Of a DNA stretch of 38,147 nt, positions 6,052 through 33,082 are shown one piece after another. Location: the NCBI GenBank assembly GCA_025929585.1, contig JAICPY010000033.1:1-38147 (forward strand), given 5' to 3'. Numbering within the stretch: position 1 is the first letter of the stretch; each line of letters begins with the position of its first letter. The notes beneath the pieces were generated by a model. The model worked only from the letters and a program-made list of their open reading frames with translations, searched no databases and was not told the DNA's origin. The DNA comes from Steroidobacter sp. (lineage in GTDB: Bacteria; Pseudomonadota; Gammaproteobacteria; Steroidobacterales; Steroidobacteraceae). A program made the position numbers and the translations under genes.

Positions 6052-6168
6052 GAGTCTTCAGTCCGCAGTCCCTGGTCCGCAGGCAAGAACAAGTTCCCGG
6101 CTCCACGCGGCTTTCGAGAGGGCTTCGTCTTCTGGCCTACGGACTGCGGACTGGAGACTGCGGACTTC
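6052..6168. repeat. Inverted heptamer element 1 (AGTCCGC / GCGGACT)
   Basis: The left arm (6052-6082) repeats AGTCCGC-type heptamers and starts 12 bp after the kinase stop codon. The right arm (6138-6168) repeats the complement, GGACTGC. The arms pair imperfectly over about 22 bp around a loop of about 55 bases. The segment before the right arm (GCTTCGTCTTCTGGCCT) resembles the same position in the element at 15799-16087. It fills most of the gap between the kinase and the diguanylate cyclase gene. Function is unknown; a 3'-end RNA hairpin is plausible. Confidence 0.75.
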
Positions 6169-6240
6169 CCCTTCTTTCATGCCATTTCTGCGCACCGCGC
6201 ACTTTGCGAACCGGAGCGTTGCGGGTACGATCCCGGTGGC

Positions 6241-7188
6241 ATGACAGACCTACAAATCCCGGCCCCGGATTGGCGCATTCTGCTGGTTGATGACGAGCCT
6301 ACACAGCGGCTCATCATGGCCCGTTTGCTCAAACGGGCGGGTTACGAAGTCGAAACCGCCAGCAACGGCAAAGAGGCCCTGCAGAAGATCGAGGCAGGCG
6401 ACTTCCATTTGATGATCACCGATTGGGAAATGCCCGAAATGGATGGCATTGCGCTCTGCAGCGCGCTTCGGTCATCTCAAACGAAGGGTTACGTCTATAC
6501 GATCTTGCTGACCGCGCGAGATGCGATCGAGCACGTGGTCACAGGGTTGCAATCCGGTGCCGATGACTATCTGACGAAGCCGGTGATCGAACCTGAGCTC
6601 ATTGCTCGCTTGAGCACGGGCAAGCGCATCGTCACGCTGGAGCGCTCGCTGCGTCACGCGAATGAGGAAAACCGACGCCTGTCGATCACGGATCCTCTCA
6701 CGGGTGCCTACAATCGGCGTTACCTAATGGAGCAGCTTCCTCGTGAGATCGAGCGCGCCGCACGATACGAGCGCCAGCTTTCCGTGATCATGTGTGACGT
6801 CGATCACTTCAAGAAGATCAACGACACTCACGGCCACCTCGCTGGCGACGACGTGTTGCGGTGGTTCGTGACACACCTGCAGAAGGGCGTTCGCGCCTGC
6901 GATTGGGTAGCGCGATACGGCGGAGAAGAATTCGTGATCGTGCTTCCGGAAACGACGGTCGCGAATGCGGGCACTGCCGCTGAGCATCTTCGACGCGAGG
7001 TCAGCGTCGGACAGTTCAATTCAGGCGCGCTGCAATTCGATGTCACCGCAAGTTTCGGCGTCTCAGGCTGGCGCGCTATCGTGCCGCCAGGCGCCACGTT
7101 GGATGCATTGATGACCAAGTGCGATGCAGGCGTGTACGCGAGCAAGGCTGCTGGGAGAAATCGCGTAACGGTAGAGGGGATGGATTGA
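6241..7188 (+). CDS. Response regulator with GGDEF output (diguanylate cyclase)
   Basis: The 315-residue protein has a receiver at about residues 12-125, with acidic pocket DD, phosphoacceptor Asp61 (MITDWEMPEMDG) and Lys113 (LTKP). A GGDEF domain follows at about 148-312. The active-site loop reads RYGGEEF (residues 225-231), an active-type variant. RACD at 218-221 lies five residues before it, matching the RxxD inhibitory I-site. SITDPLTGAYNRR marks the domain start. It should make c-di-GMP from two GTP when phosphorylated and be restrained by product. The multi-PAS relay kinase lies 200 bp upstream on the same strand, a likely but unproven input. The architecture is PleD/WspR-like. The two receiver-EAL proteins in this window would degrade its product. 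Confidence 0.94.
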   Translation: MTDLQIPAPDWRILLVDDEPTQRLIMARLLKRAGYEVETASNGKEALQKIEAGDFHLMITDWEMPEMDGIALCSALRSSQTKGYVYTILLTARDAIEHVVTGLQSGADDYLTKPVIEPELIARLSTGKRIVTLERSLRHANEENRRLSITDPLTGAYNRRYLMEQLPREIERAARYERQLSVIMCDVDHFKKINDTHGHLAGDDVLRWFVTHLQKGVRACDWVARYGGEEFVIVLPETTVANAGTAAEHLRREVSVGQFNSGALQFDVTASFGVSGWRAIVPPGATLDALMTKCDAGVYASKAAGRNRVTVEGMD

Positions 7189-7286
7189 GAGCTGCGATGG
7201 GTGATGAGGAGAGGCCGTTTCGTCTCTTCTTCATCATCTGAACGAGGCCCTCTTGGATATCTCCTCGGAGAGACCCGTCGGAGGCC

Positions 7287-7321
7287 CCCTCCCTAACCCT
7301 TCCCCGCAAGCAGGGGAGGGA
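7287..7321. repeat. CCCTCCC...GGGGAGGG hairpin repeat
   Basis: A C-rich left side (CCCTCCCTAACCCTTCCCC) and a G-rich right side (AGGGGAGGG) are separated by GCAAGC. They can fold into a stem of about 8 bp with one G-T pair. The form matches the CCCTAACCCT...CTCCC-loop-GGGAG class of dispersed intergenic hairpins that I know from many proteobacterial genomes. A related copy lies at 33000-33070. It is probably a REP-like element, with no assigned function. Confidence 0.6.
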
Positions 7322-7425
7322 ATCAGAAGCGAGGCATTGGCCTCTTTCGCCTCCGGGAATCACATGCAAAAGCATTGCGTCTTTCGTCGCCACGCTGCGC
7401 CTCCGAATACCTATCCAACTTACCT

Positions 7426-7511
7426 CCCTATTTCCTATTTCCTATTTCCTATTCCCTATCCCCTAGTCCCTAGTCCCAACTCTCTCTGCCCTATCCGCTA
7501 TCCGCTTCCCT
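7426..7511. repeat. Drifting heptamer array (CTATTTC to CTAGTCC to CTATCCG)
   Basis: Tandem 7-mers change stepwise: CTATTTC three times, then CTATTCC, CTATCCC, CTAGTCC twice, a short break, then CTATCCG units. The array ends about 6 bp from the stop codon of the DUF4097 gene. The last words match the array at 33083-33134. CTAGTCC is close to the TAGTCCG units of the inverted elements elsewhere, which suggests one family with local divergence. Confidence 0.8.
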
Positions 7512-7516
7512 CCTAC

Positions 7517-8389
7517 TCACTTCTTACACACCTCGATCGCACCGTTCAGCGTCTTGATGCGAACGCGGGCGTCGCCATCGCCTTCTTCGAAGCGCAGCGC
7601 GGTGCCGGGGCCATATTGACTCGTTCGCCTAGCCTTCGGGCCGAAGCAGTTCTTGATCTCGCCATTGAAGCTTTCGATGTCGAACTCGGCATCGACTTTG
7701 CCGCGCAGGTTCAGGCGGATCGCACCGTTGATGGCTTCTGCTGCCACGCGTCCATCTTCGGCCAGCTCGCCCTCGATGCGAATCTCACCATTCGTGGTAT
7801 TGAAGCGCGCCTCCTCGATCTGCGCTGAACGCAGCTCGATCGTGCCGTTCACGGTTGTGAGCTCGAACTGTCCGCCCATCTGCTCCAGATCGATGGCACC
7901 GCTCACTGTACTGACACGACTCGATGAGGATTTTCCGCTGCCCTTGACGCGGATCTCGCCGCTCACGGTTTTCGCGTCCAGATCCTCTGATCCGACACTG
8001 GTGCGAATTTCACCGCTGACTGATTGCAGCCGTTGCTCACCTGATACGTTCTCGATCGTTTGTGAAGCGCTCACGGTCTTGATTTGCAGCGTGCTTTCGC
8101 GAGGTACGTGAATGGTTAGATCGGTCGCGCCGGCTTCCTTTTCACGCGGCCATTTCACTCGGATACGCGTGAGATCCGCATCGCGTTCGAACTCGACTTC
8201 TTCCACGCCGCGACCGAGATCCGCCTGCATGCGAACCTTGGGCTGATCCCAGCCGATCACGCGCACATCACCGGAGAGATTGACGATTTGTACTTCGCCC
8301 CGCGGTGAAGCCGCGGTTTCACGCTCAACCTGTTCGGCATGAACAGCGTGCGCGAACAGTAACGCACCCAGGACAACGAACGTTCTCAT
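7517..8389 (-). CDS. DUF4097 family beta-repeat protein, secreted
   Basis: This 290-residue protein starts with a signal peptide (MRTFVVLGALLFAHAVHA, probable cleavage after Ala18). The rest is a repetitive beta-strand domain with recurring VSGEI, VSGAI, VNGTI, TNGEI and FNGEI turns between about residues 105 and 285. This is typical of DUF4097/GIN-type putative adhesin domains, which form a single-stranded beta-helix-like stack. It should be periplasmic or surface-associated. Its ATG overlaps the stop of the anti-sigma-like gene as ATGA, so it is translationally coupled and is the third gene of an ECF-sigma operon. DUF4097 proteins are often found in such operons, but their biochemical function is not established. 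Confidence 0.85.
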   Translation of the reverse strand: MRTFVVLGALLFAHAVHAEQVERETAASPRGEVQIVNLSGDVRVIGWDQPKVRMQADLGRGVEEVEFERDADLTRIRVKWPREKEAGATDLTIHVPRESTLQIKTVSASQTIENVSGEQRLQSVSGEIRTSVGSEDLDAKTVSGEIRVKGSGKSSSSRVSTVSGAIDLEQMGGQFELTTVNGTIELRSAQIEEARFNTTNGEIRIEGELAEDGRVAAEAINGAIRLNLRGKVDAEFDIESFNGEIKNCFGPKARRTSQYGPGTALRFEEGDGDARVRIKTLNGAIEVCKK

Positions 8390-8970
8390 AAGTCGACCCT
8401 CGTAACGGGTGCCGGCGTCATCTGTGCGACATCGGCCAGCAACCGCAATTCACTCTGATATGTGGATAGCAATAATTCCTGCAGCAAAGGATCGTTGGGA
8501 TGCTGTGCCAACGTGTCTGCAATTTCGTGCGCTGCCTTGCGGATATCCGCAAGATTGCGCTGCACCTTCTCGCGAGCAGGCCCTGGCAACGAAGCCAATC
8601 GAGCCTCGAATTGTTGATCGAGCGAGGCGCGCGCCTGAGCGTAGTCTTGACCTAAACCTTGGCCCGCAAAGCTCGCAGGCATCACCGTCAGCGCGGGTCG
8701 GCTCGGTTCCTGATCCGCTAAAGCAGGTTCCTGAACATTCGACTCGCGCATCAGGACGTAGGTCGTGAGCGAAGAGGCGATCACGAGCAATACGGCAGCG
8801 GCCATCTGATACCAGCGCATTCCAGAGCTTCGACTCGGTCGCGATTCCAGTGTTTGCGCAGAGCCGAGCTCGCTGCGAATGCCTTGCCACAGATCACGAC
8901 GTGGTTGCACATCGCGCGGCAGCTTCGCGAGTGCTTGATCCAGCGAATCTTGATGGGGTGCGTTCATCAT
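8386..8970 (-). CDS. Membrane anti-sigma-factor-like protein
   Basis: This 194-residue protein has a cytoplasmic N-terminus of about 50 residues (LDQALAKLPRDVQPRRDLWQ). One membrane helix follows at about 54-74 (MAAAVLLVIASSLTTYVLM), then a helical, charged periplasmic part (about 100-185) likely to form a coiled coil. No HxxxCxxC zinc-binding anti-sigma motif is present. The call rests on topology and position: it lies between an ECF sigma gene and a DUF4097 gene, overlapping the former as ATGATGA and the latter as ATGA. The expected role is to hold the sigma factor at the membrane until an envelope signal arrives. Direct sequence evidence for sigma binding is lacking. Confidence 0.72.
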   Translation of the reverse strand: MMNAPHQDSLDQALAKLPRDVQPRRDLWQGIRSELGSAQTLESRPSRSSGMRWYQMAAAVLLVIASSLTTYVLMRESNVQEPALADQEPSRPALTVMPASFAGQGLGQDYAQARASLDQQFEARLASLPGPAREKVQRNLADIRKAAHEIADTLAQHPNDPLLQELLLSTYQSELRLLADVAQMTPAPVTRVDL

Positions 8971-9557
8971 TCGACCTCAGCCATTCCGAGTCGCTGTCTC
9001 AATAGACGACGTCCTCGATGTACCTGGGCCTTGCAGGTACCTACTGCAACGCCCAACATATCCGCCACTTCTTCGTGGCTGTATCCATACACCGCCTGCA
9101 ACACCATCGCGTGACGTGCGCCCTCGGGAAGTGATTCCAACGCACGCTCGACGTCCGTGACATCCATCGCATCGAACTGGCTCGGCGCTTGCTCGATCTC
9201 CACGTGCTCGGCGATGGCCTCTTCATCGGATTCCTCTCTCGTACCGTGATTGCGCTGGTGCGAGAGCACCTCATTCACGGCAATTCGATGCAGCCAAGTG
9301 CCAAATGCGCTGCGACCCTCGAACGCTTGCAGATTGCGCCAAGCCCGAACGAAAGCGAGTTGGACGCAGTCTTCGGCAATGTCAGGATTCCGAGTCATCC
9401 GCAAACACAATCCATACACCCGTGCGCTATGCACGCGATACAAACGCTCGAACGCGTGCATATCCCCACCCCGCGCCGCCGCGACGAGATGCGCATCCGT
9501 CATGGACTCTCGTTCGACGTTCACGACCGAATCGTTCCTAGGCACACGTAAGAGCAT
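8967..9557 (-). CDS. ECF-type RNA polymerase sigma factor
   Basis: The 196-residue protein has sigma region 2 at about residues 22-95 (AFERLYRVHSARVYGLCLRM, then DIAEDCVQLAFVRAWRNLQAF). Region 4 is at about 130-190 (LPEGARHAMVLQAVYGYSHE, then EVADMLGVAVGTCKAQVHRG). It belongs to the sigma-70/ECF group and should direct RNA polymerase to a small regulon, probably including its own operon. It is the first gene of a three-gene overlapping operon. The start is ambiguous: the ATG at 9557 has GAGG close by, while an internal ATG at 9503 (MTDAHLVAAARGG) matches the usual ECF N-terminus better. A GGAAC box near 9536-9540 with GTCGAA about 15 bases on would place a sigma-E-like promoter within the longer frame. 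Confidence 0.93.
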   Translation of the reverse strand: MLLRVPRNDSVVNVERESMTDAHLVAAARGGDMHAFERLYRVHSARVYGLCLRMTRNPDIAEDCVQLAFVRAWRNLQAFEGRSAFGTWLHRIAVNEVLSHQRNHGTREESDEEAIAEHVEIEQAPSQFDAMDVTDVERALESLPEGARHAMVLQAVYGYSHEEVADMLGVAVGTCKAQVHRGRRLLRQRLGMAEVE

Positions 9558-9627
9558 CCGCCTCGAAGCAAAGGCTCCAATCAGCCTGTGTATGGATTGG
9601 ATGCGCGCCAGAAGGCTTAGGTTTAAA

Positions 9628-9771
9628 GGAGTCTGCAGTCTGTAGTCCGCAGTCTACAGGGAGAAATGGGCAGACTCGCGAGGGCTGCGCAGGCAGCATC
9701 GAGGAGGACTAAATCGGATATCGGATGCAATCCCGGCCAAGATCCGGCTGCAAACTGCAGACTACGGACTC
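9628..9771. repeat. Inverted heptamer element 2
   Basis: The left arm (9628-9660) consists of AGTCTGC/AGTCTGT/AGTCCGC/AGTCTAC heptamers. The right arm (9748-9771) consists of complementary ACTGCAG/ACTACGG words and runs into the stop codon of the receiver-EAL gene. The arms are about 87 bp apart. This occupies most of the gap between that gene and the sigma-factor gene. The structure matches the elements at 6052, 15799, 18431 and 22615. Confidence 0.72.
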
Positions 9772-10955
9772 TAAGCAGGAGCAACCTGCTTCCCGTTCCA
9801 TTCCTTGACCGCGCACTCCAAGACATTGCCGGGCATCGGGCGGCCGATGAAGTAGCCTTGCGCGCGGTCGCAGCCGACATTGTCGAGGAAGTCGAGGATT
9901 TCTTGGGTTTCTACGCCTTCGGCACACGCGGTCAGGCGCAGCTTGTGCGCGAGCAGCACCATGGTTTCGACCATCGTGCGCGCGTCTTCGTGAGCAAAGA
10001 TGTCGCGCACAAAAGAGGTGTCTATCTTCAGTTCGCTAAAAGGCATCAGATAAAGCTGCTTCAGGGAAGAATACCCGGTGCCGAAATCATCGATCGACAG
10101 GCCGAAGTTCTTCACTCGCATCCGAGTGAGCACATCCATAGTCGTGCCCGGATCGAACATCGCCGCACTCTCTGTCACCTCGAAGATGATGCGGCGCGCC
10201 TCCGCGCCCACCTGAGCGGCCATCCGAGCGACTTGATCGGGAAACGCCAGATCGTTGAGCAGTTGCGGCGATAAGTTGATCGCCACTGACAACTGCAAAC
10301 CTGCCGCATCCCACACACGGCATTGGCTGAGCGCGGTTTCGATGACTTGTTCGGTCAAGCGACGAATCAGTCCATGCTTTTCGGCGACGGCGATGAATCG
10401 CAGCGGCGAGATCGGACCCAGCGCGGGATGATTCCAGCGCGCCAGCGCTTCGACCCCTTCTACGATCCAGCGGCCCGGAGCGACACGTGTTGCTTTCGGT
10501 TGATAGTGAACCTGGATCTCCCGCTTCTCGAGTGCAGCAGTGAGCGATTCGGGCGTGAGCGGCGCATCGCAACGCAAGCATTGACGCAGCGTCGCTTCGA
10601 GGTCCGCGAGCAGAATCGGCTTTTGCAACGCACCGAGCATGTTGAGACCTTGCGATTTGCCGAGTTGCTGCGCAGTGGCAAGCACGCGTTGATCCATGCC
10701 GCTTGCGACCAACACCTGCGCTTTGCTGCCACGCTCGCCTAGATAGCGCAGCAGCTCGATGCCGTCGGCCCCAGGCATCTGCAAATCCAACACGACGACT
10801 GTCGGTTGAAATTCTTGCACGGCGCGACGAAACGCATCGGGCTCAGTCACCGCCAATGATTCGAATCCCATGCCGCGCGCGGCCTCGGAGATGAACTCGC
10901 AAAGGTCGGGCTGATCGTCGATGACCAGCAGTTTGTTTTCGAGATCAGGCAACAC
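9771..10955 (-). CDS. Receiver-EAL response regulator (c-di-GMP phosphodiesterase), copy A
   Basis: A receiver domain (about residues 8-125) has phosphoacceptor Asp57 (VVLDLQMPGADG) and Lys112 (ALQKP). An EAL domain (about 140-385) follows. Catalytic signatures are intact: E169-A170-L171 (VEALARW), INLSPQ, IIFEVTES, DDFGTGYSS, ELKID and CAEGVET. It should hydrolyse c-di-GMP to pGpG under control of phosphorylation. The frame extends upstream to 11057, but GGGAGG lies just before a GTG at 10955 and a TTG at 10952, inside the last codons of the hybrid kinase. I therefore place the start there, with an 11-bp overlap of the kinase stop. The overlap implies translational coupling, and the kinase is its likely phosphodonor. 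It is a close paralogue of the protein at 18569-19765. Confidence 0.92.
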   Translation of the reverse strand: MLPDLENKLLVIDDQPDLCEFISEAARGMGFESLAVTEPDAFRRAVQEFQPTVVVLDLQMPGADGIELLRYLGERGSKAQVLVASGMDQRVLATAQQLGKSQGLNMLGALQKPILLADLEATLRQCLRCDAPLTPESLTAALEKREIQVHYQPKATRVAPGRWIVEGVEALARWNHPALGPISPLRFIAVAEKHGLIRRLTEQVIETALSQCRVWDAAGLQLSVAINLSPQLLNDLAFPDQVARMAAQVGAEARRIIFEVTESAAMFDPGTTMDVLTRMRVKNFGLSIDDFGTGYSSLKQLYLMPFSELKIDTSFVRDIFAHEDARTMVETMVLLAHKLRLTACAEGVETQEILDFLDNVGCDRAQGYFIGRPMPGNVLECAVKEWNGKQVAPA

Positions 10956-13326
10956 GAGCCTCCCGGTCCAGCACGTAGCGGATTCGCATCGCGAGGTCTT
11001 CATTGCGATACGGCTTGTTGATGACTTCGCTGGAAGACAAACCGGCCGTGCTGGCAAGGACGTTCGTCTCTGCGTAGCCGGTCGTGAACAACACCTCGAT
11101 GGTCGGACGCATTTCGCGCGCCCGTTTCGCGAGAGCTGGCCCGAGCATGCCTCCAGGCATCATCACATCCGTGAATAACAATTCGATCTTCTCTGGACCG
11201 GCCAAAACACGCAGGGCGGCCGCCGCATTCGGCGCTGCGAGGGCACGATAGCCAAGCTGAGAGAGTGCGGTGACGACTGTTTCGCGCAAATCCGCATCGT
11301 CTTCGACGACTAGAATCGTTTCGGTACCCCCGGGCGCCACCTTCGAAACGATCGTGTCTTCGCGTTCGTCTTTGGCTTCTCGCGAGCGCGGCAGCAGAAT
11401 CTGCACCGTTGTGCCGCGAGTGGGTTTGCTTTCGATGGTCGCCGCACCGCCAGCTTGTTCTGCGAAGCCATGCACCATCGCGAGTCCGAGACCGCTCCCC
11501 TTGCCGGATTCTTTAGTCGTGAAAAAAGGTTCGAAGACCCGCTTGAGCACATCCGGTTCGATACCGCATCCGGTATCCGTGACACTCACAGAAACATACT
11601 CACCCGGCTCGAGCTGCGGATGATCTGCACAGAACGCGCTGTCGAGCACGACGTTCTGCGTACGAACGGTAAGCCGTCCGCCTTGGACCATCGCATCGCG
11701 CGCGTTGATCGCCAGATTCAAAATTGCATTCTCGAATTGTCCGGCATCCACACGCGTATGCCAGAGATCGTGCGCTTGCACCATGCGCACTTCAATCGAG
11801 TCGCCAAGACTGCGCTGCAGAAGATCGGTGAGCCCTGCGAGCTGGCGGTTCAAATCGACGACCGTGGGGTCCAGAATTTGCCGTCGTGCGAACGCCAGCA
11901 GCCGCTTCGTCAAGTCAGCGCCGCGCGCCGCCGCTCGCATCGCGGTGTGAACCTTGCGTGCCAAGCCTGGATTCTCGGCGACGCTGCGCTCGATCAGCTG
12001 CAAGTTGCCAATGACCACACCCAACAGGTTGTTGAAATCATGTGCGATGCCGCCGGTGAGCTGGCCGATCGCTTCCATCTTTTGTGCCTGCAGAAGACGG
12101 GATTCCAAACGCTTGATCTCGGTAAGGTCGTACAGAATGGAGAAGAATCCCATCACTTCTCGATTCGGCCCGATCTGTGGGACCAGATGGGTCTGCCACT
12201 CACGGGTCCGTCCATTGCGAATGCCCGACTGCGTCGCCAGCACCGCCTCACCACGCATCGCTGCTGCAATTTGCGGACCCAGTGTAATCAAGGATTCGGA
12301 AGTCAGAACCTCTCGCAAGTGCTGGCCGACGATTTGCTCATGAGCTCGATCGAGCCATTCTTCCATCGCTCGATTGGCGTACGTCACTTCCATTTTCGTG
12401 TCGACGAAAATGACCGGGGTCGGTACGGCATTGAGCGTGAGCTCGAAGAAGTCGCGCGTCTCGCGTAGCTGCCTTTCCGCCATGACGAGGTCGGTGATGT
12501 CTTGCATCGTTCCGTGCAAGCGCACTGTGCGCCCTTCGCGCCGCTCGGCTTGCAGAATGATGCGAACATGCAGATGCCGTCCGCGCGCGTTGGTCAATCG
12601 CGCTTGAAAATCGGCGGCAACACCGGAATCAAGCGCCTTTTGAACCGCGGCCTTCATCTTGATTTGATCCTCGGGATGCAGCATCGCGATGAGATCGCGA
12701 TCTCCGAGAGAAGCAGTCAGCGGCAGCTCATGCATTGCGTACAGTGCTTCGGTCCAATGCACTGTCTTCGCATCGATGTCGTATTCCCAGCCGCCGATCT
12801 TCGCTGTCGCCTGCATGTCCTTCAGCAGGTTGTCCAGACGGACGCGTTCGGTCACGTCGCGAAATACTAAGACCGTGCCGACCGTGACGCCCTGCTCGGT
12901 GACCGGCATGATCTTGTACTGCACCGGCCGATACTGGCCATCCTTACGACGCAGCAGAGCACCCACGCCGCGCATGATGTCCGTCGTATAACGCACACGG
13001 CGAACGGCATCGCCTTCGATCTGATCGTTGATCAAGATGCGATAGTCGAGACCCACCAACTCGTCGCCTTCGTAGCCGAGCATCTTGGCGGCCGCAGGAT
13101 TCGCATACCTCACGTTGCCGACGTGATCGAGCTCCAGCACGCCTTCGCCGGAACCTTCGACGACAGCGTGATTGCGCCGGTTCTCGGCATGGAGCGATCG
13201 CTGTGCTCTCTCGCTGCTATCGCGCGCCCGTTTCAAAAAGAAAAAGGCGCCTATGCTTGCGAGCAACGCGCCCAGGAGCAAGCCGCCCAGCAATGGCATC
13301 CCGAGCACTCCGTGCATCAGGTTCAT
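10945..13326 (-). CDS. Hybrid histidine kinase with 3 PAS domains and C-terminal receiver, copy A
   Basis: The 793-residue protein has one N-terminal membrane helix (about 9-30). PAS domains lie at about 50-160, 165-290 and 293-410. The HisKA region has GGIAHDFNNLLGVVIGN (His429). The ATPase region has NLAINARDAM, DTGCGIEPDV and GKGSGLGLAM. A receiver follows at about 668-785 with Asp720 (LLFTDVMMPGG). The AHDFNNLL kinase plus MMPGG receiver is a common FixL-like hybrid class whose phosphoryl group usually passes to a separate regulator. The gene lies 21 bp downstream of a NarL-type regulator and overlaps the receiver-EAL gene, so the EAL protein is the best candidate target. The short N-terminal anchor leaves no periplasmic sensor, so sensing is probably through the cytoplasmic PAS domains. 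Confidence 0.93.
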   Translation of the reverse strand: MNLMHGVLGMPLLGGLLLGALLASIGAFFFLKRARDSSERAQRSLHAENRRNHAVVEGSGEGVLELDHVGNVRYANPAAAKMLGYEGDELVGLDYRILINDQIEGDAVRRVRYTTDIMRGVGALLRRKDGQYRPVQYKIMPVTEQGVTVGTVLVFRDVTERVRLDNLLKDMQATAKIGGWEYDIDAKTVHWTEALYAMHELPLTASLGDRDLIAMLHPEDQIKMKAAVQKALDSGVAADFQARLTNARGRHLHVRIILQAERREGRTVRLHGTMQDITDLVMAERQLRETRDFFELTLNAVPTPVIFVDTKMEVTYANRAMEEWLDRAHEQIVGQHLREVLTSESLITLGPQIAAAMRGEAVLATQSGIRNGRTREWQTHLVPQIGPNREVMGFFSILYDLTEIKRLESRLLQAQKMEAIGQLTGGIAHDFNNLLGVVIGNLQLIERSVAENPGLARKVHTAMRAAARGADLTKRLLAFARRQILDPTVVDLNRQLAGLTDLLQRSLGDSIEVRMVQAHDLWHTRVDAGQFENAILNLAINARDAMVQGGRLTVRTQNVVLDSAFCADHPQLEPGEYVSVSVTDTGCGIEPDVLKRVFEPFFTTKESGKGSGLGLAMVHGFAEQAGGAATIESKPTRGTTVQILLPRSREAKDEREDTIVSKVAPGGTETILVVEDDADLRETVVTALSQLGYRALAAPNAAAALRVLAGPEKIELLFTDVMMPGGMLGPALAKRAREMRPTIEVLFTTGYAETNVLASTAGLSSSEVINKPYRNEDLAMRIRYVLDREARVA

Positions 13327-13347
13327 GCGTCCATTCCCGCCCGCGCG

Positions 13348-14073: not shown

Positions 14074-14101
14074 TTCTTAACTCCTTCCAAAGATCTCACT
14101 A

Positions 14102-15646: not shown

Positions 15647-15687
15647 GGCGCCGAAATCACGAACACGATGGTCATTGAGGGCCGCTG

Positions 15688-15711
15688 TAGGGGATATCAG
15701 TCGATCCCCTA
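15688..15711. promoter_or_regulatory. Inverted repeat upstream of the NarX-type kinase, possible operator
   Basis: TAGGGGAT and ATCCCCTA form a perfect 8-bp inverted repeat around an 8-bp spacer, 42 bp upstream of the kinase start. A third related half-site, CAGGGGTG, follows at 15716-15723. Symmetric spacing in the promoter region suits a dimeric regulator. The NarL-type regulator of the same operon is a candidate for autoregulation. The binding protein is inferred, not shown. Confidence 0.45.
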
Positions 15712-15798
15712 ATGTCAGGGGTGGTGGCGGAGACTTCGGAGAGGAATGCGGCGGAAGGCGGAGCCGGTGACATAAGCGGGCGGAAGGGAGGAAGGTAG

Positions 15799-16087
15799 GA
15801 AGTCCGCAATCCGTAGTCCGTAGTCCGTGGCCAGAGGGGAGCAAGACAAAGAAACAATGCCCCATGCGCAGGGGTAGCAAACGAAGCGCTGGGCGAAAAG
15901 CTCTTCTCCGGCCTGCGGACTGCGGACTCGGGTCCACCCTCCCCCTCTACGTCCCCACTCCGTAGTCGTGGGAGGAGAGGAAGCACACACCGAATAGGCC
16001 TTGTCGACGGCAGGGGGTGTCGCCCGCGAAACAGCGAGCGAAGCTCTTCTCCGGCCTGCAGACTACGGACTGCGGACTACAGACTCT
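15799..16087. repeat. Inverted heptamer element 3, with duplicated right arm
   Basis: The left arm (15799-15833) carries AGTCCGC/AATCCGT/AGTCCGT/AGTCCGT. A right arm at 15911-15930 has CTGCGGACTGCGGACT. A second right arm at 16056-16087 has GACTACGGACTGCGGACTAC and stops 12 bp from the regulator stop codon. Both right arms are preceded by the same 16-base string, CTCTTCTCCGGCCTGC, so about 150 bp including the arm has been duplicated. Confidence 0.72.
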
Positions 16088-16098
16088 TCTCCCTCCCT

Positions 16099-16767
16099 CT
16101 ACGTCCCCGTCCCTTCCCGATCCGATACCCATTGGGTGGCGTAGCGGATGAGCTCGCTGGTGGAGCGCAGGTTGAGTTTCTCTCGCATGTGGCGACGATG
16201 GGCGTCGACGGTCTTCATGGACAGTGACAGGCGCTGAGAGATCTCGCGCGTGCTGATGCCTTCGCCGATCAGTCGAAAGACTTCGAGCTCTCGATCAGTC
16301 AAGGACGATACGGGATCTTCATCTTGTCCCGGGGCACGGCCGCGAGCCACCTGGGTCAACAAGCGCTCGCCCATTGCCGCACTGAGATGGCGCTGCCCCC
16401 GCGCGACTTTGCGCAGTGCACCCAAAAAATCGGTACCGGCGACATTTTTCATGACATAGCCGCTCACGCCGAGTCGTAATAGACGCTCGGCGTACAGCGC
16501 TTCGTCCTGCATCGAGAGCACGAGCACGCGCACATCGGGATGTTCAGAGCGAATCCAGCGCACCAACTCGATACCGTCGTCCGCACCCAGCGCTAAGTCC
16601 ACAACAGCCACATCGGGCTCGGATCCATCGATGGCAGCTTGTGCGTCTTGTACGGAGGACGCCTCTGCGGAAAGTACGAAGTCGCCTTGGCCGGCGAGTA
16701 ACTGCTTCAACCCCTCTCTGACGAATGGATGGTCATCGACGATCACGATCCGTGTTTGTTCTGGCAT
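16099..16767 (-). CDS. NarL/FixJ-type response regulator, copy B
   Basis: From the ATG at 16767 this is a 222-residue protein. The receiver (about 5-120) has IVIVDDHPFVREGL, phosphoacceptor Asp57 (VVDLALGADDG) and the MKN lysine. A LuxR-type helix-turn-helix (LTDRELEVFRLIGEGISTRE, then MKTVDAHRRHMREKLNLRS) occupies about 150-215. The frame is open to 16869, but receivers of this family normally begin only a few residues before VDDHP, as MPEQTRIVIVDDHP does. An ATG at 16818 is another option. It is the likely partner of the divergent NarX-type kinase starting at 16915 and resembles the regulator at 13348-14073. Confidence 0.92.
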   Translation of the reverse strand: MPEQTRIVIVDDHPFVREGLKQLLAGQGDFVLSAEASSVQDAQAAIDGSEPDVAVVDLALGADDGIELVRWIRSEHPDVRVLVLSMQDEALYAERLLRLGVSGYVMKNVAGTDFLGALRKVARGQRHLSAAMGERLLTQVARGRAPGQDEDPVSSLTDRELEVFRLIGEGISTREISQRLSLSMKTVDAHRRHMREKLNLRSTSELIRYATQWVSDREGTGT

Positions 16768-16914
16768 GGTGTCATCAAACCTCGCGAGCAACTTTACCGA
16801 CGCCTGTAGTTCTAGCATCCCATTTTGCGGTCGCACAAGCTCACAGCAATCCACATTTTCCACAGTCACCCGTTAAGTGTTAGCGTGTAGCACGGGGAAC
16901 GGCGTGCAAAGCTG

Positions 16915-18420
16915 ATGGAAAGCACGCCGAATTGGCATGGGAGCTCGTTACGGCATGTCCGCATGAACCATGATTCGGTGAGATCGCTGCGGTTTGTTCT
17001 CCTCGAGGACGACCCAAACGACGCTGAGCTGGTACAGCTCGAACTGGCGAGAAACGGCTTCGACGTTTCCTGGTGCCACGTCGCTTCGGAAAAACAGTTT
17101 CGCGAGGCCCTGGGCAACGGCGAGATCGATCTCGTTCTCGCGGACTACACCCTTCCCGGCTTCGATGGCCGCAAGGCGCTCACGATCACGCAGAAAACCT
17201 TGCCGGGTGTTCCTTTCATTTTCGTGTCCGGTTCACTCGGCGAAGAACGCGCGATCGAAGCGCTAAAAAGCGGTGCGACCGACTACGTTCTGAAAGATCG
17301 GCTGCAACGCTTGCCGACGGTCGTAAATCGAGCGCTCCAGGAATCGCGTGAGCGGCGCGAGCGACGTCAAGCGGAAGCAGCGCTCGATGAACAACGCGTG
17401 CTGCTCAGCACGGTGATGGATAGCCTGCCGGAGATTATCTACACCGTTGACACGCAAAATCGGATGACAGCCGTCAATCGCGCGATGATCGAAGCAACCG
17501 GGAAAACGCGCGAGCAGCTTCTTGGCCGCCAGGTTTCCGAGATCTGGACTGACGAGACCTCTTTGGATGTTGAAGCGCAAGCTGCAACAGTCATGCGAAA
17601 CGGACGCGCGATTGCCGATCAAGAACGGGCCTGGATTAGCGCGGACGGCTCAGTGCGCTGGTTCACACTGACGCATGCCCCCTTGCGCGACCACGGCAAG
17701 ATCACCGGCCTGGTGTGTGCGGTTCAAGAAGTCACCGACCGCAAAGCGCTCGAGCAAGAGATCCTGGAAATTTCTAATCGCGAACAACGTCGGCTCGGGA
17801 GCGATCTGCACGATGGACTAGGTCAGGAGCTCACAGGCTTGTCTCTGCTGCTCAAAGGACTGGAGGTCCAGCTTTCACGAGAGGCGCCACAATATTTATC
17901 GCAGATAACGAAGATCAGCGATCTATTGGCACGCGCAATTCAGAGCACTCGATCGCTTGCGCGCGGACTCGCCCCAGTGAATTTAGAACGCGGTGGGCTG
18001 CCGGAAGCACTCAAGCATTTGGCCGCGCGTTGTACGGATATGTACAACCTGCAGTGCACGTTCTCGCTCAACGGTCAGAAGGTCCCGGAGTTGGAAGAAG
18101 TCGCGGCAACTCATCTATATCGCGTCGCTCAAGAAGCGACGACAAACGCAGCCAGATACGCACGCGCAAAGTCGATTTCGATCGAGCTGCGAACCGTCGC
18201 CCGCAAACTTCAGCTATCGATCGCCGATGACGGGATCGGTTTGACCGCCGGTCTCGCACACGGCAAACCGGGCATGGGCTTGAAAATCATGGAATATCGC
18301 GCGCGCATGCTGGGCGGCAGCGTTGCCTTCGAAGAACCCGATCGCGGCACGAAGATCGTGTTGGTCGCACCATTGCATATGCTGAGGCCATCGAAGGAGA
18401 AGCGAGCGGCGGCGGGGTAA
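16915..18420 (+). CDS. Receiver-PAS-HisKA_3 sensor kinase (NarX-type), copy B
   Basis: The 501-residue protein begins with a receiver (about residues 24-140; FVLLEDDPNDAELVQLEL, acceptor in LVLADYTLPGFDG, then LKDRLQRL). A PAS domain follows at about 165-280 (LPEIIYTVDTQNRMTAVNRA). HisKA_3 carries GSDLHDGLGQELTG (His299). The HATPase has HLYRVAQEATTNAARYA, IADDGIGL and GMGLKIMEYRARML. An ATG at 16963 (MNHDSVRSLRF) is an alternative start. Neither start has a strong ribosome-binding site. Compared with copy A, an N-terminal receiver replaces a PAS domain, so it can itself receive a phosphoryl group, possibly from the hybrid kinase at 19752. It is divergent from its likely regulator partner at 16099. 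Confidence 0.9.
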   Translation: MESTPNWHGSSLRHVRMNHDSVRSLRFVLLEDDPNDAELVQLELARNGFDVSWCHVASEKQFREALGNGEIDLVLADYTLPGFDGRKALTITQKTLPGVPFIFVSGSLGEERAIEALKSGATDYVLKDRLQRLPTVVNRALQESRERRERRQAEAALDEQRVLLSTVMDSLPEIIYTVDTQNRMTAVNRAMIEATGKTREQLLGRQVSEIWTDETSLDVEAQAATVMRNGRAIADQERAWISADGSVRWFTLTHAPLRDHGKITGLVCAVQEVTDRKALEQEILEISNREQRRLGSDLHDGLGQELTGLSLLLKGLEVQLSREAPQYLSQITKISDLLARAIQSTRSLARGLAPVNLERGGLPEALKHLAARCTDMYNLQCTFSLNGQKVPELEEVAATHLYRVAQEATTNAARYARAKSISIELRTVARKLQLSIADDGIGLTAGLAHGKPGMGLKIMEYRARMLGGSVAFEEPDRGTKIVLVAPLHMLRPSKEKRAAAG

Positions 18421-18430
18421 GCCGGCGTAC

Positions 18431-18560
18431 CTGAGTCCGCAGTCTGCAGTCCTGAGTCCTCAGGTAAGACTGAACGTCTAACTCACTGCCGCTTCGCTCA
18501 AACCACCGGAGAACCGCTCTTGTCTCGCTGCAGACTACAGACTGCGGACTGCGGACTCGC
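18431..18560. repeat. Inverted heptamer element 4 (convergent gap)
   Basis: The left arm (about 18431-18463) reads GAGTCCGCAGTCTGCAGTCC and onward. The right arm (18528-18560) is CTGCAGACTACAGACTGCGG and onward. About 26 of 31 positions can pair, around a loop of about 65 bases. The left arm begins 11 bp after the plus-strand kinase stop and the right arm ends 9 bp before the minus-strand EAL-gene stop, so one element lies at the 3' ends of both genes. Confidence 0.8.
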
Positions 18561-18568
18561 CCTTCCCT

Positions 18569-19765
18569 CTATTTCCTCACCACCGGCACCCACGTGTGAT
18601 CCGCTCCATTCCAAACATGGATGAAGTTCTCCATCTCCGAGGCTGGCATGGCCGAGGCGATGAAGTCGCCTTGAAGGGCATCGCAGCCGATCTGATCTAG
18701 GAATTCGAACTGCGCTGCTGTCTCGACGCCTTCGGCGCACGCGCTCAAGGAAAGGTTGTGGGCGAGCTCGACGATGGCACGCACGACGGTTGCTGCTGCT
18801 TTGCTGGTGCCGACATCGGCGATCAAGCTGCCGTCGATTTTCACTTCGCTGAAGGGCATTTTGTACAGCTGCGTCAGCGACGACATGCCAGTGCCGAAAT
18901 CATCGAGCGACAGTCCGACGCCTTTCACGCGCAGACGCGTGAAGATGTCCATCACCAGCTCCGGGTCGTCGAGCGATGCGGCTTCGGTGACTTCCAGTAT
19001 CAATTGCTCGGGGGCAGTCTCGAATTCTTTGAAGACGCGATTCAGGCGATCGGGAAACTCCAGATCCTGAACCAGGCGAGGCGAAAGATTCACTGCGACC
19101 GAGAGATCCAAGCCGCGCTGTCGCCAGTGGCCCACTTGCCTGATCGCATCGGTCATCACAAAGTCAGTGATACCGACGATGAGGCCGGACTGCTCGGCGA
19201 GTGCCAGGAATTCGCCCGGATACAACAAACCTAAACGGGGATGGCGCCAACGCACGAGTGCCTCGGCACTGCGCACCTGCCAATCGTTGGGCGCTCGAGC
19301 CACCTTTGGTTGATAGTGGACGAGGAGTTCGTGCTCCTCGACTGCTTGGCGCAGGTCTTCAGCCGAAATACGCGCCCCTGGATCTAAATGTTTCATAAGT
19401 AAGTTCTCGATGTCTTCGAGCATGGCCGGCTTCTGCAGCGTACCCAACATGCGAAGGCCCAGCGAATCGCCCAACTGACGTGCGCTCGCAAGGACGCGTT
19501 GATCCATGCCGCTCGCAAGCAAAACACCGGATGTGATGCCTTGGCGCGCGAGATAGCGCAGCGCCTCGATGCCATCCATGCCGGGCATCTGCAGGTCCAG
19601 AAGAATCAAGCAGGGTTGGCGCGAGCTCAGTTGCTCGCGGAAACGCGCAGCACTGTCCGCGGTGATGACCTCGCAGCCGACCCCTTCGCCGATCTGCTCG
19701 ATCAACTCCAAAAAGTCGACCTCATCGTCGACGACAAGCAATAAATTCCTTTCAGGCCGGAACAC
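18569..19765 (-). CDS. Receiver-EAL response regulator (c-di-GMP phosphodiesterase), copy B
   Basis: The 398-residue protein starts at a GTG (19765) preceded by AGGAG at 7 bases. The ribosome-binding site and start lie inside the last codons of the hybrid kinase, overlapping its stop by 14 bp. The receiver has Asp57 (LILLDLQMPGMDG) and Lys112 (TLQKP). The EAL domain has E168-A169-L170 (AEALVRW), VNLSPR, LILEVTEA, DDFGTGMSS, EVKID and CAEGVET, all needed for metal-dependent c-di-GMP hydrolysis. The LLASGMDQRVLASARQLG block is nearly identical to that of copy A. The receiver acceptor and EAL motif fall at the same residue numbers in both, which shows paralogy. The longer open frame to 19867 is out of register with any homology. 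Confidence 0.92.
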   Translation of the reverse strand: MFRPERNLLLVVDDEVDFLELIEQIGEGVGCEVITADSAARFREQLSSRQPCLILLDLQMPGMDGIEALRYLARQGITSGVLLASGMDQRVLASARQLGDSLGLRMLGTLQKPAMLEDIENLLMKHLDPGARISAEDLRQAVEEHELLVHYQPKVARAPNDWQVRSAEALVRWRHPRLGLLYPGEFLALAEQSGLIVGITDFVMTDAIRQVGHWRQRGLDLSVAVNLSPRLVQDLEFPDRLNRVFKEFETAPEQLILEVTEAASLDDPELVMDIFTRLRVKGVGLSLDDFGTGMSSLTQLYKMPFSEVKIDGSLIADVGTSKAAATVVRAIVELAHNLSLSACAEGVETAAQFEFLDQIGCDALQGDFIASAMPASEMENFIHVWNGADHTWVPVVRK

Positions 19766-22517
19766 GATGGGTCTCCTCTTTGCCGTCCAACAAGGCGCGT
19801 ACCCGCCGCGCCAGTTCGTCCACTTTGTACGGCTTCTGCAATAAATCGATACTGCCGTCCAGCACACCGCGGTTCATGATGCCGCTTTCGCTGAAGCCGG
19901 AGGTCATCAGTATCCGCAATCCGGGGCGCCGTTCACGCAATTTGTGCACTAGCTGAGTTCCCAACAGCCCCCCAGGCAGCATGACATCCGAGAACACCAG
20001 TGCAATTTCCGGGTGACGCATGAATTGCTCGAGAGCTTGGTGGCCGTTCGATGCTTCGAGCAACCGATAACCCAGGCTGCCGAGAATATCGACAGCGGTG
20101 CTGCGAACTTCAATGTTGTCTTCCACCACGAGGATCAACTCCTCGCCTCGTGGCAGCTCCGCCTGGCCTACTGCTTCCAGATTTGCGCCGGTCAGCGCCG
20201 CATGTATACGCGGGAAATACAGATGAACGGTCGTACCTTGATTCGGCGTGCTCGAGATTCGCACATGGCCACCAGACTGCTTCACGAAACCATACACCAT
20301 CGACAGCCCGAGCCCACTGCCCTTGCCGACGTCTTTGGTCGTGAAGAATGGCTCGAACACTCGTTTCAGTACAGCGGCAGACATACCCGAGCCGGTGTCT
20401 TTCACTTCCAACACTGCATAGTCGCCGGGGCTCAAGCCGTCATCGCTCAAGTCGTGTTGATCGCTGATGGTGAGATTGTACGTGCGAATCGTAATTACAC
20501 CGCCCGAGGGCATTGCATCGCGCGCGTTGATGACTAGATTGAGCACGCTATTTTCTAACTGACCTGGATCGGCGCGCGTAGCCCAAAGATCCGAATCCAA
20601 GTGCTGCTGGATTTCGATCTCACCAGTTAGCGTGCGGCGCAGAAGCTCATACATTCCGCCGATCATCGTGTTCAGGTCCACAACCTTCGGCTCGAGCACT
20701 TGCTGGCGCGCAAACGCGAGCAGCCGCTGGGTCAACGCGGCGCCTCTCATAGCGGCACTCAGCGCGGTCTCGGCTTGTCGCAACAAGCGGGGGCTCTCGC
20801 GTAAGGAACGCGCCAACAGCTGCATATTGCCGACGATGACGGAAAGCAGGTTATTGAAGTCGTGTGCGATGCCGCCCGTCAGTCGCCCGACGGCTTCCAT
20901 CTTTTGACTTTGACGCAGCTCTGCTTCGAGTTGCCGCTTATCGGTCATGTCGCGGGCAGCGACGATGCATCCTTGCAGCTCACCAAACTCATCGTAATGA
21001 GGCAGAAACAACGCATCCATGTCCAGCACCTTGCCCGCGTGAGTCTTGAATCGGCCTTGACCTTCGGCGGCTTTGCCCTGCAATGCCTGACGCACATAGG
21101 GACCGATGGCTCCATAGCGACGATCGCCGATCACATCGTTGATCACCCTGCCACGGCTGCTTGCGAGCGGCACGGAGAAGAATTCTTGGAAGGCGCGGTT
21201 TGCATACACGATGCGCTCATCTCGATCCGCGTAAGCAATGAACAACGGCAATGAGTCGAGGATCGTGCCGTAAAAATCTTGGCTTCGGTGCAGCGCTTCC
21301 TCTGCATCCACCTGCCCGCTGATATCGCTGATGGATCCGGAAAGCCGCACCGGCCGTCCTGCAGCATCGCGCACTGCCTCGCCTCGCAAACGGCACCAGA
21401 TCGAACCTTCTTTACGCGATTGCACGCGGCATCGAACGTCCAACTTGGAGTGGTTCTCCAAGTGGCTGCGAATCTTCGCGAGCACGATAGCTCGATCGTC
21501 AGCGTGCAAGACGCTCTGGAAGGAGACGAATGCGTCCTTGAAGTCATCTTCATCGTGTCCGACGATCTCGCGAAATCGATTGGCGTACCACACGTGCCCG
21601 GTCAACAAGTCCCAGTCGTACAACCCGTCTGATGTGCCTCGTACTGCTCGCTCCCAACGCTGTTGCGTAGCGTGCGCTTCCTGCACGGCATCGCGGCGCG
21701 CAGAGATGTCGTGCAGCACACCGATAACCCGAAGGGGCTTGCCGTCCGCATCGCGCCGCACGACCTTCGCATAGGCTTCGAACCACTTAGGTGTTCCAGC
21801 GCTAGTCTGCAGCGCGTATTCCGCACTGAAGGAAGAGGTGCGGCCATGATAGTGATCTTCGAACTGCTGCAGAATGTCCGGGCGCTCTTCGGGCAGCAAT
21901 AAACGCCCGCTTAGCTCTTCGCGATTGAGCAAGCTCTGAGGATCGATGTTCAACGAGTCGAGCCAGCGCTCGTTGTAATAAATTTCGTCTTGCGAAACGT
22001 TCCAATCCCACATGGAAAGCGAGTTCGCGGCAATCGCAACTTCCAGCCGCCCTTCACTTGCACGCAACGATTCACGAGCGCGCTTGTGCTCGGAAATATC
22101 CTCGATCATCAGAAGTAGATGCTGTGCGTCGGTTTGTGAGTTCGAGATTGGGCGCGTCGATATCCTCACCCACACGCCAATGCCATCGCGTCGATAGATG
22201 AGCCATTCCAGCGAGACGACTTGCCCGCCAGTCAGAGCGGTCCGTAGCTGCTGCTGCACTAGCGGATCGCTATCGCGCCCCGCGAGAAGCTGCCAGATCG
22301 GTCCGCGCGACAGCGCTTCGGTACCAAAACCGGTGAGCAGGGTGAACGCCTTGTTGATGCGCACAACGGCGCGATCCGGCATGTTTGCATCGAACACGAC
22401 GATGCCGTGAGGCACGCTCTCGAGAACGTCACCCATGTCTAAACCAGAAATGGAAGCTGCGCTCGCGCCCATACCGATCAACTGCGAGTTCGGATCAATG
22501 ACATATTCCAGGCCCAC
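19752..22517 (-). CDS. Hybrid histidine kinase with 4 PAS domains and C-terminal receiver, copy B
   Basis: The 921-residue protein has no clear membrane helix. PAS domains lie at about residues 30-145, 155-275, 280-405 and 410-530; the second and third have PAC-type ends (GVLHDISARRD, GSISDISGQVD). HisKA carries GGIAHDFNNLLSVIVGN (His552). The HATPase has NLVINARDAM, DTGSGMSAAV and GKGSGLGLSM. The receiver (about 790-910) has Asp844 (LVFSDVMLPGG) and LLQKPYK. The C-terminal half resembles the kinase at 10945-13326 closely, but the sensory half has one more PAS and no membrane anchor. The overlapping receiver-EAL gene makes c-di-GMP turnover its likely output. It is the first gene of its transcription unit, and its promoter should lie in 22518-22614. 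Confidence 0.92.
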   Translation of the reverse strand: MGLEYVIDPNSQLIGMGASAASISGLDMGDVLESVPHGIVVFDANMPDRAVVRINKAFTLLTGFGTEALSRGPIWQLLAGRDSDPLVQQQLRTALTGGQVVSLEWLIYRRDGIGVWVRISTRPISNSQTDAQHLLLMIEDISEHKRARESLRASEGRLEVAIAANSLSMWDWNVSQDEIYYNERWLDSLNIDPQSLLNREELSGRLLLPEERPDILQQFEDHYHGRTSSFSAEYALQTSAGTPKWFEAYAKVVRRDADGKPLRVIGVLHDISARRDAVQEAHATQQRWERAVRGTSDGLYDWDLLTGHVWYANRFREIVGHDEDDFKDAFVSFQSVLHADDRAIVLAKIRSHLENHSKLDVRCRVQSRKEGSIWCRLRGEAVRDAAGRPVRLSGSISDISGQVDAEEALHRSQDFYGTILDSLPLFIAYADRDERIVYANRAFQEFFSVPLASSRGRVINDVIGDRRYGAIGPYVRQALQGKAAEGQGRFKTHAGKVLDMDALFLPHYDEFGELQGCIVAARDMTDKRQLEAELRQSQKMEAVGRLTGGIAHDFNNLLSVIVGNMQLLARSLRESPRLLRQAETALSAAMRGAALTQRLLAFARQQVLEPKVVDLNTMIGGMYELLRRTLTGEIEIQQHLDSDLWATRADPGQLENSVLNLVINARDAMPSGGVITIRTYNLTISDQHDLSDDGLSPGDYAVLEVKDTGSGMSAAVLKRVFEPFFTTKDVGKGSGLGLSMVYGFVKQSGGHVRISSTPNQGTTVHLYFPRIHAALTGANLEAVGQAELPRGEELILVVEDNIEVRSTAVDILGSLGYRLLEASNGHQALEQFMRHPEIALVFSDVMLPGGLLGTQLVHKLRERRPGLRILMTSGFSESGIMNRGVLDGSIDLLQKPYKVDELARRVRALLDGKEETHRVPA

Positions 22518-22614
22518 GACGCCGGACCCGCAGCTTGGATCAAGAACCGCGCCCCAAACTGTGTTGCGGCGCGCGGGGAGAGCGGTTTAGGGAAATGCCT
22601 GAGGGCGGGAGGAT

Positions 22615-22757
22615 GGAGAGTCCGCAGTCCCCAGTCCCCAGTCTGCAGCTAGAACGAGCAAGGCGACCTTCTCGACACGCGTCCTAAGGCAGGCGGGGCC
22701 GCCAATGCGCAAGCTTCTTTTTCTTGCTAAAGACAACAGACTGCGGACTGTGGACTC
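22615..22757. repeat. Inverted heptamer element 5
   Basis: The left arm (22615-22650) carries AGTCCGC/AGTCCCC/AGTCCCC/AGTCTGC. The right arm (22736-22757) carries ACAGACTGCGGACTGTGGACT and stops 12 bp from the kduD stop codon. The loop is about 85 bases. It lies between copy B of the signalling set and the pectin locus. Confidence 0.75.
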
Positions 22758-27322: not shown

Positions 27323-27348
27323 CGATGCCGCTTGGCTAAGCGGCATCG
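27323..27348 (+). terminator. Hairpin just after uxaA (no T-tract)
   Basis: An 11-bp perfect stem (CGATGCCGCTT / AAGCGGCATCG) closes a GGCT tetraloop, two bases after the uxaA stop codon. No T-run follows; instead GTTGACG-type heptamers begin at once. It could stabilise the 3' end or attenuate readthrough into the next gene rather than act as a full intrinsic terminator. Confidence 0.5.
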
Positions 27349-27349
27349 C

Positions 27350-27422
27350 AGTTGTCGGTTGGCAGTTGACGGTTGACAGCCGGAGTAGGAACCTTCTGAC
27401 CGTCAACTGCCAACCGTCAACT
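27350..27422. repeat. GTTGACG heptamer inverted repeat before the mannitol-dehydrogenase-family gene
   Basis: The arms 27350-27372 and 27400-27422 are complementary at 22 of 23 positions and are built of GTTGACG/GTTGGCA heptamers, around a 27-base loop. The right arm ends five bases before the ATG at 27428. The start codon has no Shine-Dalgarno sequence of its own, so the hairpin occupies the place where a ribosome-binding site should be. Confidence 0.85.
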
Positions 27423-33070: not shown

Positions 33071-33082
33071 TGCGCTGTCTAG

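Follow-up and report, generated by a model that had tools for sequence, protein, structure and literature searches.

The DNA analysed here, referred to as the window, is a 38,147-nt stretch that constitutes contig C91 of a Steroidobacter sp. genome of 5.13 Mb in 297 contigs. A preliminary description of the window had claimed inverted arrays of an AGTCYGC-type heptamer in five gaps, and scripted searches confirmed a stem in all five (6053-6159, 9637-9770, 15801-15928, 18433-18558 and 22618-22757; the paired elements are unstranded). Element 1 (6053-6166) pairs arms 6053-6078 and 6134-6159, has a right array that runs out to 6166, and lies 12 nt from the stop codon at 6040. Element 2 (9630-9770; arms 9637-9659 and 9748-9770, left array from 9630) directly abuts the stop codon (9771) of the minus-strand gene 9771-10955, with 0 nt between them. 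Element 3 (15801-15928; arms 15801-15823 and 15906-15928) shares gap 15799-16087 with a second right arm (16045-16085, minus strand). Relative to the stop at 16099, this second arm lies 13 nt away and the first right arm ends 170 nt away. The two right arms are direct repeats whose starts are 143 bp apart; CCCTCTACGTCCCC comes after both and is repeated as well, its second copy being the gene's own 3' end. Element 4 (18433-18558; arms 18433-18463 and 18528-18558) sits between convergent stops, 12 nt from the one at 18420 and 10 nt from the one at 18569, and element 5 (22618-22757; arms 22618-22654 and 22721-22757) is 11 nt off the stop at 22769.

The window also holds arrays of other units. 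A GTTGACG-family element (27350-27422; arms 27350-27373 and 27399-27422) lies between a uxaA-like, that is altronate-dehydratase-like, gene ending at 27320 and a mannitol-dehydrogenase-family gene starting at 27428, and a lone GTTGACG array with no partner arm seen (28906-28927, plus strand) follows right behind the stop at 28900. Unpaired TTTCCTA/TCCCTAT and CTATCCG heptamer arrays (7424-7506, minus strand) adjoin the stop of the minus-strand gene 7517-8389, a CTATCCG array in right-arm orientation (33084-33133, minus strand) adjoins that of the minus-strand gene 33141-34751, and an 8-bp array of GTGACGAG type (32946-32988, plus strand) overlaps the stop (32953) of the plus-strand gene 31322-32953. 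The window gave no Rfam match at the gathering threshold. The mannitol-dehydrogenase-family protein (27428-28900) is 65-66% identical to Steroidobacter and Peristeroidobacter homologues and 75-76% identical to those of two MAGs.

The heptamer is not a product of chance: AGTCYGYAGTCYGYAGTC with at most one mismatch gave 298 matches in the 5.13-Mb genome (155 forward and 143 reverse), and its reversed control gave 0 + 0. AGTCYGC is one of about a dozen units, mostly of 7 but also of 8 or 9 bp, that share one architecture. The heptamers include AGTCYGC, GTGACGG, GATAGSG, GTTGACR, GGTTAGC, GTGATTC, GGACGGC and GGTCTGC; the others are 8-mers such as GTGACGAG, the 9-mer GTGATGGAG, and longer GTGTAGACGT and GGGGGTAATGATTAG types. 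Tandem arrays in 433 kb of the genome numbered 83 at lag 7, compared with 0-16 at lags not divisible by 7, and their mean overlap with called genes was 4.5%. A kinship of the units by single steps, which appeared among 17 hand-picked units (p 0.003), is not claimed, as the effect disappeared (p 0.31) in a set of 12 with near-duplicates and some others taken out.

A scan of 81 stretches (1.42 Mb; gaps of 60-1200 bp, inverted-repeat score of at least 14) found a strong inverted repeat in 185 of 672 gaps, and none of the first 497 gaps reached that score after one letter shuffle each. We assigned 154 of the repeats to unit families, using hand-written patterns that have probably misplaced a few members, and 9 to a CGCAGCGGCG group whose partly shared loops make it look like a separate element; 22 were left unclassified. 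Many of these stretches were drawn from contigs known to carry AGTCYGC matches, and the density was 104 per Mb in contigs C1-C20, which were taken by number (24 elements in 231 kb), and 135 per Mb in the remainder.

Each element consists of a forward array as its left arm, an unconserved loop, and the reverse complement as its right arm. The arms have a median length of 29 nt and, true to their description as complementary pairs, a mean identity of 0.88 over the 185 elements, a likeness to the terminal inverted repeats of MITEs; the loop has a median length of 54 nt (5-95% range 9-122). Polarity is fixed. The forward word falls in left and right arms 28 and 0 times for AGTCYG, 27 and 0 for GATAGSG, 18 and 0 for GTTGAC, and 29 and 1 for GTGACG, that one GTGACG being the sole forward word in a right arm among twelve words tested; by symmetry, the forward unit comes first on either strand. 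Many unit families have in common an inner motif beside the loop, GYMAGA on the left and TCTKRC on the right, and it is the complement of this motif that the look-alike segments noticed inside the window's right arms contain. Within about 40 nt, GYMAGA occurs on the left in 81 of 154 elements, its complement on the right in 77 of 154, and both in 49 of 154, versus 4.9% per side after shuffling. The loops themselves are not shared: among 142 compared, 153 pair matches had E below 1 and 3 had E below 1e-3, all of these between CGCAGCGGCG-type loops (one listed as unclassified), and no likeness was found between elements of the unit families. Recent copying of whole elements is therefore not seen. 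Compared with swapped arms, the two arms of one element pair better in three of eight families (GATAGSG, p 5e-5; P8, 1e-4; GTTGACR, 3.5e-4), and no better in AGTCYGC (p 0.30, 28 elements), GTGACGG, P9, GGGGGTAATGATTAG and GTGATTC; a smaller first sample was null for GGTTAGC and gave p 0.04 for CGCAGCGGCG. Where seen, such element-specific matching may reflect subfamilies lumped together by our patterns.

Elements occupy 123 of 409 tandem, 40 of 115 convergent and 22 of 148 divergent gaps, that is 163/524 for tandem and convergent gaps together versus 22/148 (Fisher p 7e-5), and 15% of divergent gaps still carry one. Errors of gene calling may account for some of the divergent cases; in 9 of the 22, an ORF with 80 or more codons ends close by, versus 62 of 333 random points. 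Genes were called by a home-made script, based on ORFs and hexamers, that prefers ATG and a Shine-Dalgarno (SD) sequence. The stems of the 123 tandem elements overlap the stop codon in 27 cases and start 0-5 nt after it in 34, 6-12 nt in 26, 13-25 nt in 16 and more than 25 nt in 20. The view that the element is dispersed and bound to the 3' ends of genes is thus upheld, with 103 of 123 overlapping the stop or beginning at most 25 nt from it; of the strikingly constant stop distances first reported, the window values agree with ours to 1 nt, but genome-wide there is no constant spacing of about 12 bp. In the tandem gaps that offer 250 nt or more of free space (28 gaps; the 150 nt before the start excluded), positions are non-uniform (KS p 6e-6), 17 elements lying in the first 15% and 5 at the far end. 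Unpaired arrays in tandem gaps mostly end 11-16 nt before the start when in right-arm orientation (16 arrays), and about half are nearer the stop when in left-arm orientation (10 arrays).

The arms also differ in the stop codons that they carry. Read in the sense direction, the average 5' arm closes 1.90 reading frames, versus 1.08 when shuffled, and all three frames are closed in 39 of 123 versus 5 of 123, while 3' arms close 0.41 (shuffled, 0.54). The next start lies at most 25 nt after the 3' arm in 45 of the 123 tandem elements; ATG is the start codon in all 45, and an SD-like tetramer accompanies 4 of them. An SD is found in 214 of 530 tandem pairs without a detected element versus 4 of 45 close-start cases (p 9e-6), and SD-less starts are ATG in 41 of 41 cases with an element versus 257 of 316 without (p 6e-4), start statistics that are to be confirmed with a standard caller because the one used favours ATG and SD. 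A bridge in which an SD before the stem would serve the ATG behind it was considered and rejected, since a close start does not raise the frequency of SD-like tetramers ahead of the 5' arm (14/41, versus 14/31, 14/31 and, for convergent ends, 22/45; the background at gene ends is 28% of 990).

In the comparison of our genome (G000) with relatives, G150 (the MAG behind L112) and G141, of the same genus, are treated as one, as their match coordinates are identical. The AGTCYGC pattern matched in 6 of 150 family genomes, namely our own and five others with one or two matches each. Across 200 family genomes, GTTGACR arrays number 227 in G000 (reversed control 21), 157 in G141 (control 16), 21 in G044 and one in G003, with none in the other ten genus members and single matches in three genomes from other genera. 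Among 14 genus genomes, GTGACGR arrays number 540 in G000, 56 in G044, 11 in G141 and none in the other 11 (control 0), and GATAGSG arrays 212 in G000, 74 in G044, 9 in G141, one each in two others and none in nine, the reversed control for this last unit being uninformative as it is cyclically the same kind of word and equally frequent in G000. In 148 kb of G150, from contigs chosen in part for carrying GTTGAC matches, 24 of 53 non-divergent and 0 of 18 divergent gaps hold an inverted repeat scoring at least 14, and 17 of the 24 read as repeat-unit elements (GTTGACR, GGGGCKT, GGACAGC and similar). G044 (280 kb) has three GAGCKAY-unit elements with the GYMAGA inner motif among 11 inverted repeats scoring at least 12; the remaining genus members showed no such element in stretches of 6-40 kb each, a weak negative.

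Two gene junctions are shorter in the relatives compared. The gap between the uxaA-like and mannitol-dehydrogenase-family genes measures 107 bp in our genome and 125 bp between hits in G150, with GTTGAC elements in both, and 0-6 bp between hits in six Steroidobacter and Peristeroidobacter loci; no such gene pair was obtained from a further locus (L111). Likewise, in our genome the 139 bp between pheS and pheT are filled by a GGTTAGC element, and 41 bp separate the hits in G115, the only relative compared there. Among 26 syntenic non-divergent gaps (score of at least 12), 7 are occupied in both our genome and G150, 7 in ours only, 3 in G150 only and 9 in neither. Part of these inverted repeats fall outside the repeat-unit class, and by eye a few of the gaps that scored as empty show decayed arrays. 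Given this split, occupancy is not clearly correlated; independence predicts 5.4 gaps occupied in both versus the 7 observed, and we do not claim conserved occupancy. Four of the seven doubly occupied gaps carry different units, two carry the same GTTGAC unit and one has a non-heptamer repeat. At L088:2565-2690, for example, a GATAGSG element has a GGGGCCT element as its counterpart between the corresponding stop and the same start.

A stem-loop soon behind a stop codon resembles an intrinsic (Rho-independent) terminator, and the preliminary description had suggested a bidirectional terminator or an mRNA stabiliser. Such an RNA-level function, with selection keeping the arms paired, would fit the stop-proximal placement and the depletion in divergent gaps, the element-specific arm matching in three of eight families, and the strong folds predicted for RNA of six window elements (z -2.7 to -7.7), although folds of this strength are expected of such inverted repeats. 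Other results argue against it. Unlike terminators, the elements have no U-tract, a run of four T occurring within the first 12 nt after the 3' arm in only 3 of 81 tandem elements (those at most 25 nt from a stop among 94 in a first sample), and their median loop is 54 nt. A simple terminator scan was positive near control level, in 10 of 119 tandem gaps with an element, 19 of 227 without and 9 of 118 divergent controls (convergent ends, 8/62 and 8/100). Selection for RNA pairing should favour G.U over A.C mismatches, but the sense-strand stems of the 123 tandem elements have 115 G.U and 142 A.C (p 0.10; by subset 29 v 50, 41 v 29 and 27 v 38), which weakens the RNA-level reading; convergent and divergent elements, on the plus strand, have 74 and 65. 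Elements also sit inside the pheS-pheT and uxaA-like/mannitol-dehydrogenase-family pairs, and the close next starts leave little promoter room outside the element. Termination or mRNA stabilisation as the maintaining function is thus not supported, and an RNA-level role in general seems to us unlikely. A different role at the junction would make architecture, and not sequence, the selected feature: the 5' arm would shut the frames after the gene, the stem would bridge the stop and the next start, and translation would restart at an SD-less ATG soon behind the 3' arm, so that any unit with inward stops and a clean 3' flank would work. If true, translational junction modules of this kind would explain the fixed polarity, the ATG-only starts (45/45) and the free turnover of units within the same gap; the missing G.U preference counts against them as well, and we regard them as quite improbable.

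That the elements are non-autonomous mobile DNA, as had also been proposed, would explain the same units at many loci, their common motif and polarity, and the orthologous junctions that are shorter in relatives. A MITE- or REPIN-like element of this kind would be moved by a trans-acting transposase reading GYMAGA or the arrays, its loops later being replaced or decaying. Against this, the loops are not common within unit families, where a MITE would share internal sequence, and no target-site duplication could be established across eight orthologous gaps, whose flanks are too diverged to define one. A RAYT as mobiliser was rejected, as Y1 transposases of this type occur in 6 of 14 genus members and do not track the elements. 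The single Y1 locus of our own genome (3.3 kb) contains an ordinary inverted repeat (L051:143-218) and no heptamer array. Among five long-range arm pairs listed, the one enclosed gene that was looked up is a DUF3750 gene and not a transposase. Mobility in this form is a doubtful explanation, if one that still deserves some weight. The inverted layout could alternatively be a two-sided site for a protein, or the arrays could form structures of G-quadruplex (G4) type; several units are G-rich on the left arm, and GGGAATC oligonucleotides form G4s in vitro (PMC4692102, in the part of that paper used here). Arrays of AGTCYGC, GATAGCG and GTTGACG have no runs of three G, and so many different units speak against one sequence-specific protein; we regard this explanation as highly improbable.

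REP and REPIN sequences have one short conserved palindrome with a conserved foot, and a RAYT gene is flanked by its repeat. Our elements are like REPs, BIMEs and REPINs in their hundreds of copies, extragenic location, hairpins and partial closeness to stops, and unlike them in that the arms are tandem repeats of many units, with unconserved loops in place of a conserved palindrome and foot, no RAYT gene flanked by the repeat and no RAYT association found. The closest precedent is the GGGAATC pairs of Xanthomonas, which are the same kind of object with one unit. The parts of the Xanthomonas study (Rehm et al. 2015, PMC4692102) on which we draw describe 70 (Xcc) and 75 (Xac) convergent pairs of this heptamer, one per strand; most downstream repeats are on the coding strand at most 50 bp from the stop, and they are mostly transcribed and under-represented between divergent ORFs. 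GGGNATC repeats occur in Xanthomonas and Nostoc, and 83% of sites retain the G-rich repeat between two species (PMC4692102). As in Xanthomonas, the 7-bp arrays here are mostly intergenic and form stop-proximal inverted pairs of fixed polarity. Unlike in the parts of that study used, where there is one unit type per genome and no shared inner motif is described, there are about a dozen units here (7, 8, 9 or more bp), and four of seven shared gaps differ in unit. Nearly all elements have units other than GGGNATC, the Xanthomonas unit with G4 potential; one has a GAATCGG unit (L084:15404). When 30 Xanthomonas loci were put through our own analysis (15 after removal of same-stem repeats, several still from one array), a clear GGGAATC-type inverted pair was found only at L268.

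Other heptamers are more distant. The text drawn on from MacGregor (2015, PMC4679880) reports intergenic heptamers of patchy distribution in Beggiatoaceae, Cyanobacteria and Bacteroidetes, among them TAACTGA, which contains stop codons and in BOGUAY precedes starts mostly without a Shine-Dalgarno sequence. BOGUAY has one favoured unit, and 169 sets are direct and one is indirect; a range of heptamers in Microcystis and some heptamer sets between stop codons are also noted (PMC4679880, same text). In contrast to the mostly direct arrays before starts described there for Beggiatoaceae, our elements are inverted pairs after stops. We found no report, in open-licence PMC text, of many units with one inverted architecture; about a dozen units on one design is a more varied version of the one-word repeat of Xanthomonas.

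We tentatively favour the reading, to which we give slightly less than an even chance, that the elements are selfish, REP-like DNA hairpins that occupy the space behind stop codons and evolve as DNA. What favours a DNA-level repeat is that both arms have the same unit, whichever unit it is, and that the stem shows no RNA-strand bias. Each element would be two inverted arrays of a unit of 7 (also 8 or 9) bp, typically in 3-5 copies, often with the inner motif GYMAGA/TCTKRC and around an unconstrained loop. Replication slippage would change the number of unit copies, and copying between the arms of a DNA hairpin would keep them complementary, such that both arms change unit together. Their survival would be largely confined to the space that separates a stop codon from the following start or stop, where insertion costs least; the inward stop codons of the 5' arm would make landing at a gene's 3' end tolerable, most of all for units rich in such stops. 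Translation is probably affected as a side effect by a strong stem 0-15 nt behind a stop and by an SD-less ATG shortly behind the 3' arm; according to the portion of the RepRanger paper used (PMC12306157, citing earlier work), E. coli REPs can reduce translation when they lie less than 16 nt from a stop. Several observations tell against selfish hairpins of this kind. The GYMAGA motif and the fixed polarity could equally mark a functional structure, and 22 occupied gaps among 148 divergent ones are more than a purely stop-bound element should show. Moreover, arm matching is not element-specific in five of eight families, the loops are unshared and no mobilising enzyme was found. As a whole, the interpretation given in the preliminary description is partly supported, and its observation of inverted heptamer elements at stop codons stands.

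With several hundred hairpins of one design built from about a dozen units, this genome is a natural experiment on the origin, symmetry and tolerance of repeat hairpins. With it, one can test whether repeats close to stops are selfish DNA or a part of translation, a question that also applies to the heptamers of Xanthomonas and Beggiatoa.

Long, near-perfect GTGACGG arrays in the genome from which the window derives lie at or near the ends of contigs (C12:57650-57768, C35:77231-77307 and C38:6-89). Arrays of this kind therefore probably interrupt the assembly, which would leave them under-counted. At L083:640-1922, in another of the stretches analysed, inverted AGTCYGC arms lie 1.25 kb apart with a DUF3750 gene between them, and this pair may represent either a single element with a long loop or two decayed elements.

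Within the window, the right arm and the 14 bp that follow it (CCCTCTACGTCCCC) are present in two copies at 15902-16103, spaced about 143-152 bp apart, and the second copy of CCCTCTACGTCCCC forms the 3' end of a gene. In the region 1874-24384 the elements are surrounded by signalling genes, which encode a PAS hybrid kinase, a GGDEF protein, a LuxR-type regulator and a pair of EAL response regulators; the genes of this pair, at 9771-10955 and 18569-19765, resemble each other in DNA sequence. Three copies of a 17-18-bp repeat, AAAGGGAGAAGGGACCTG, lie at 33020-33072, between the 8-mer array and the CTATCCG array.

Each of two adjacent genes has a small hairpin of the type CCGCTT-N3-TAAGCGG at its end, the uxaA-like gene at 27325-27349 and the mannitol-dehydrogenase-family gene, whose TAA stop falls inside the hairpin, at 28887-28905. 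The CGCAGCGGCG hairpins (L037:4995, L044:15850, L070:9456 and L086:15138) form a group distinct from the unit families. Comparison of their loops showed a sequence common to the copies, with 77-85% identity over 34-48 bp, and this group looks like an ordinary MITE-like repeat.
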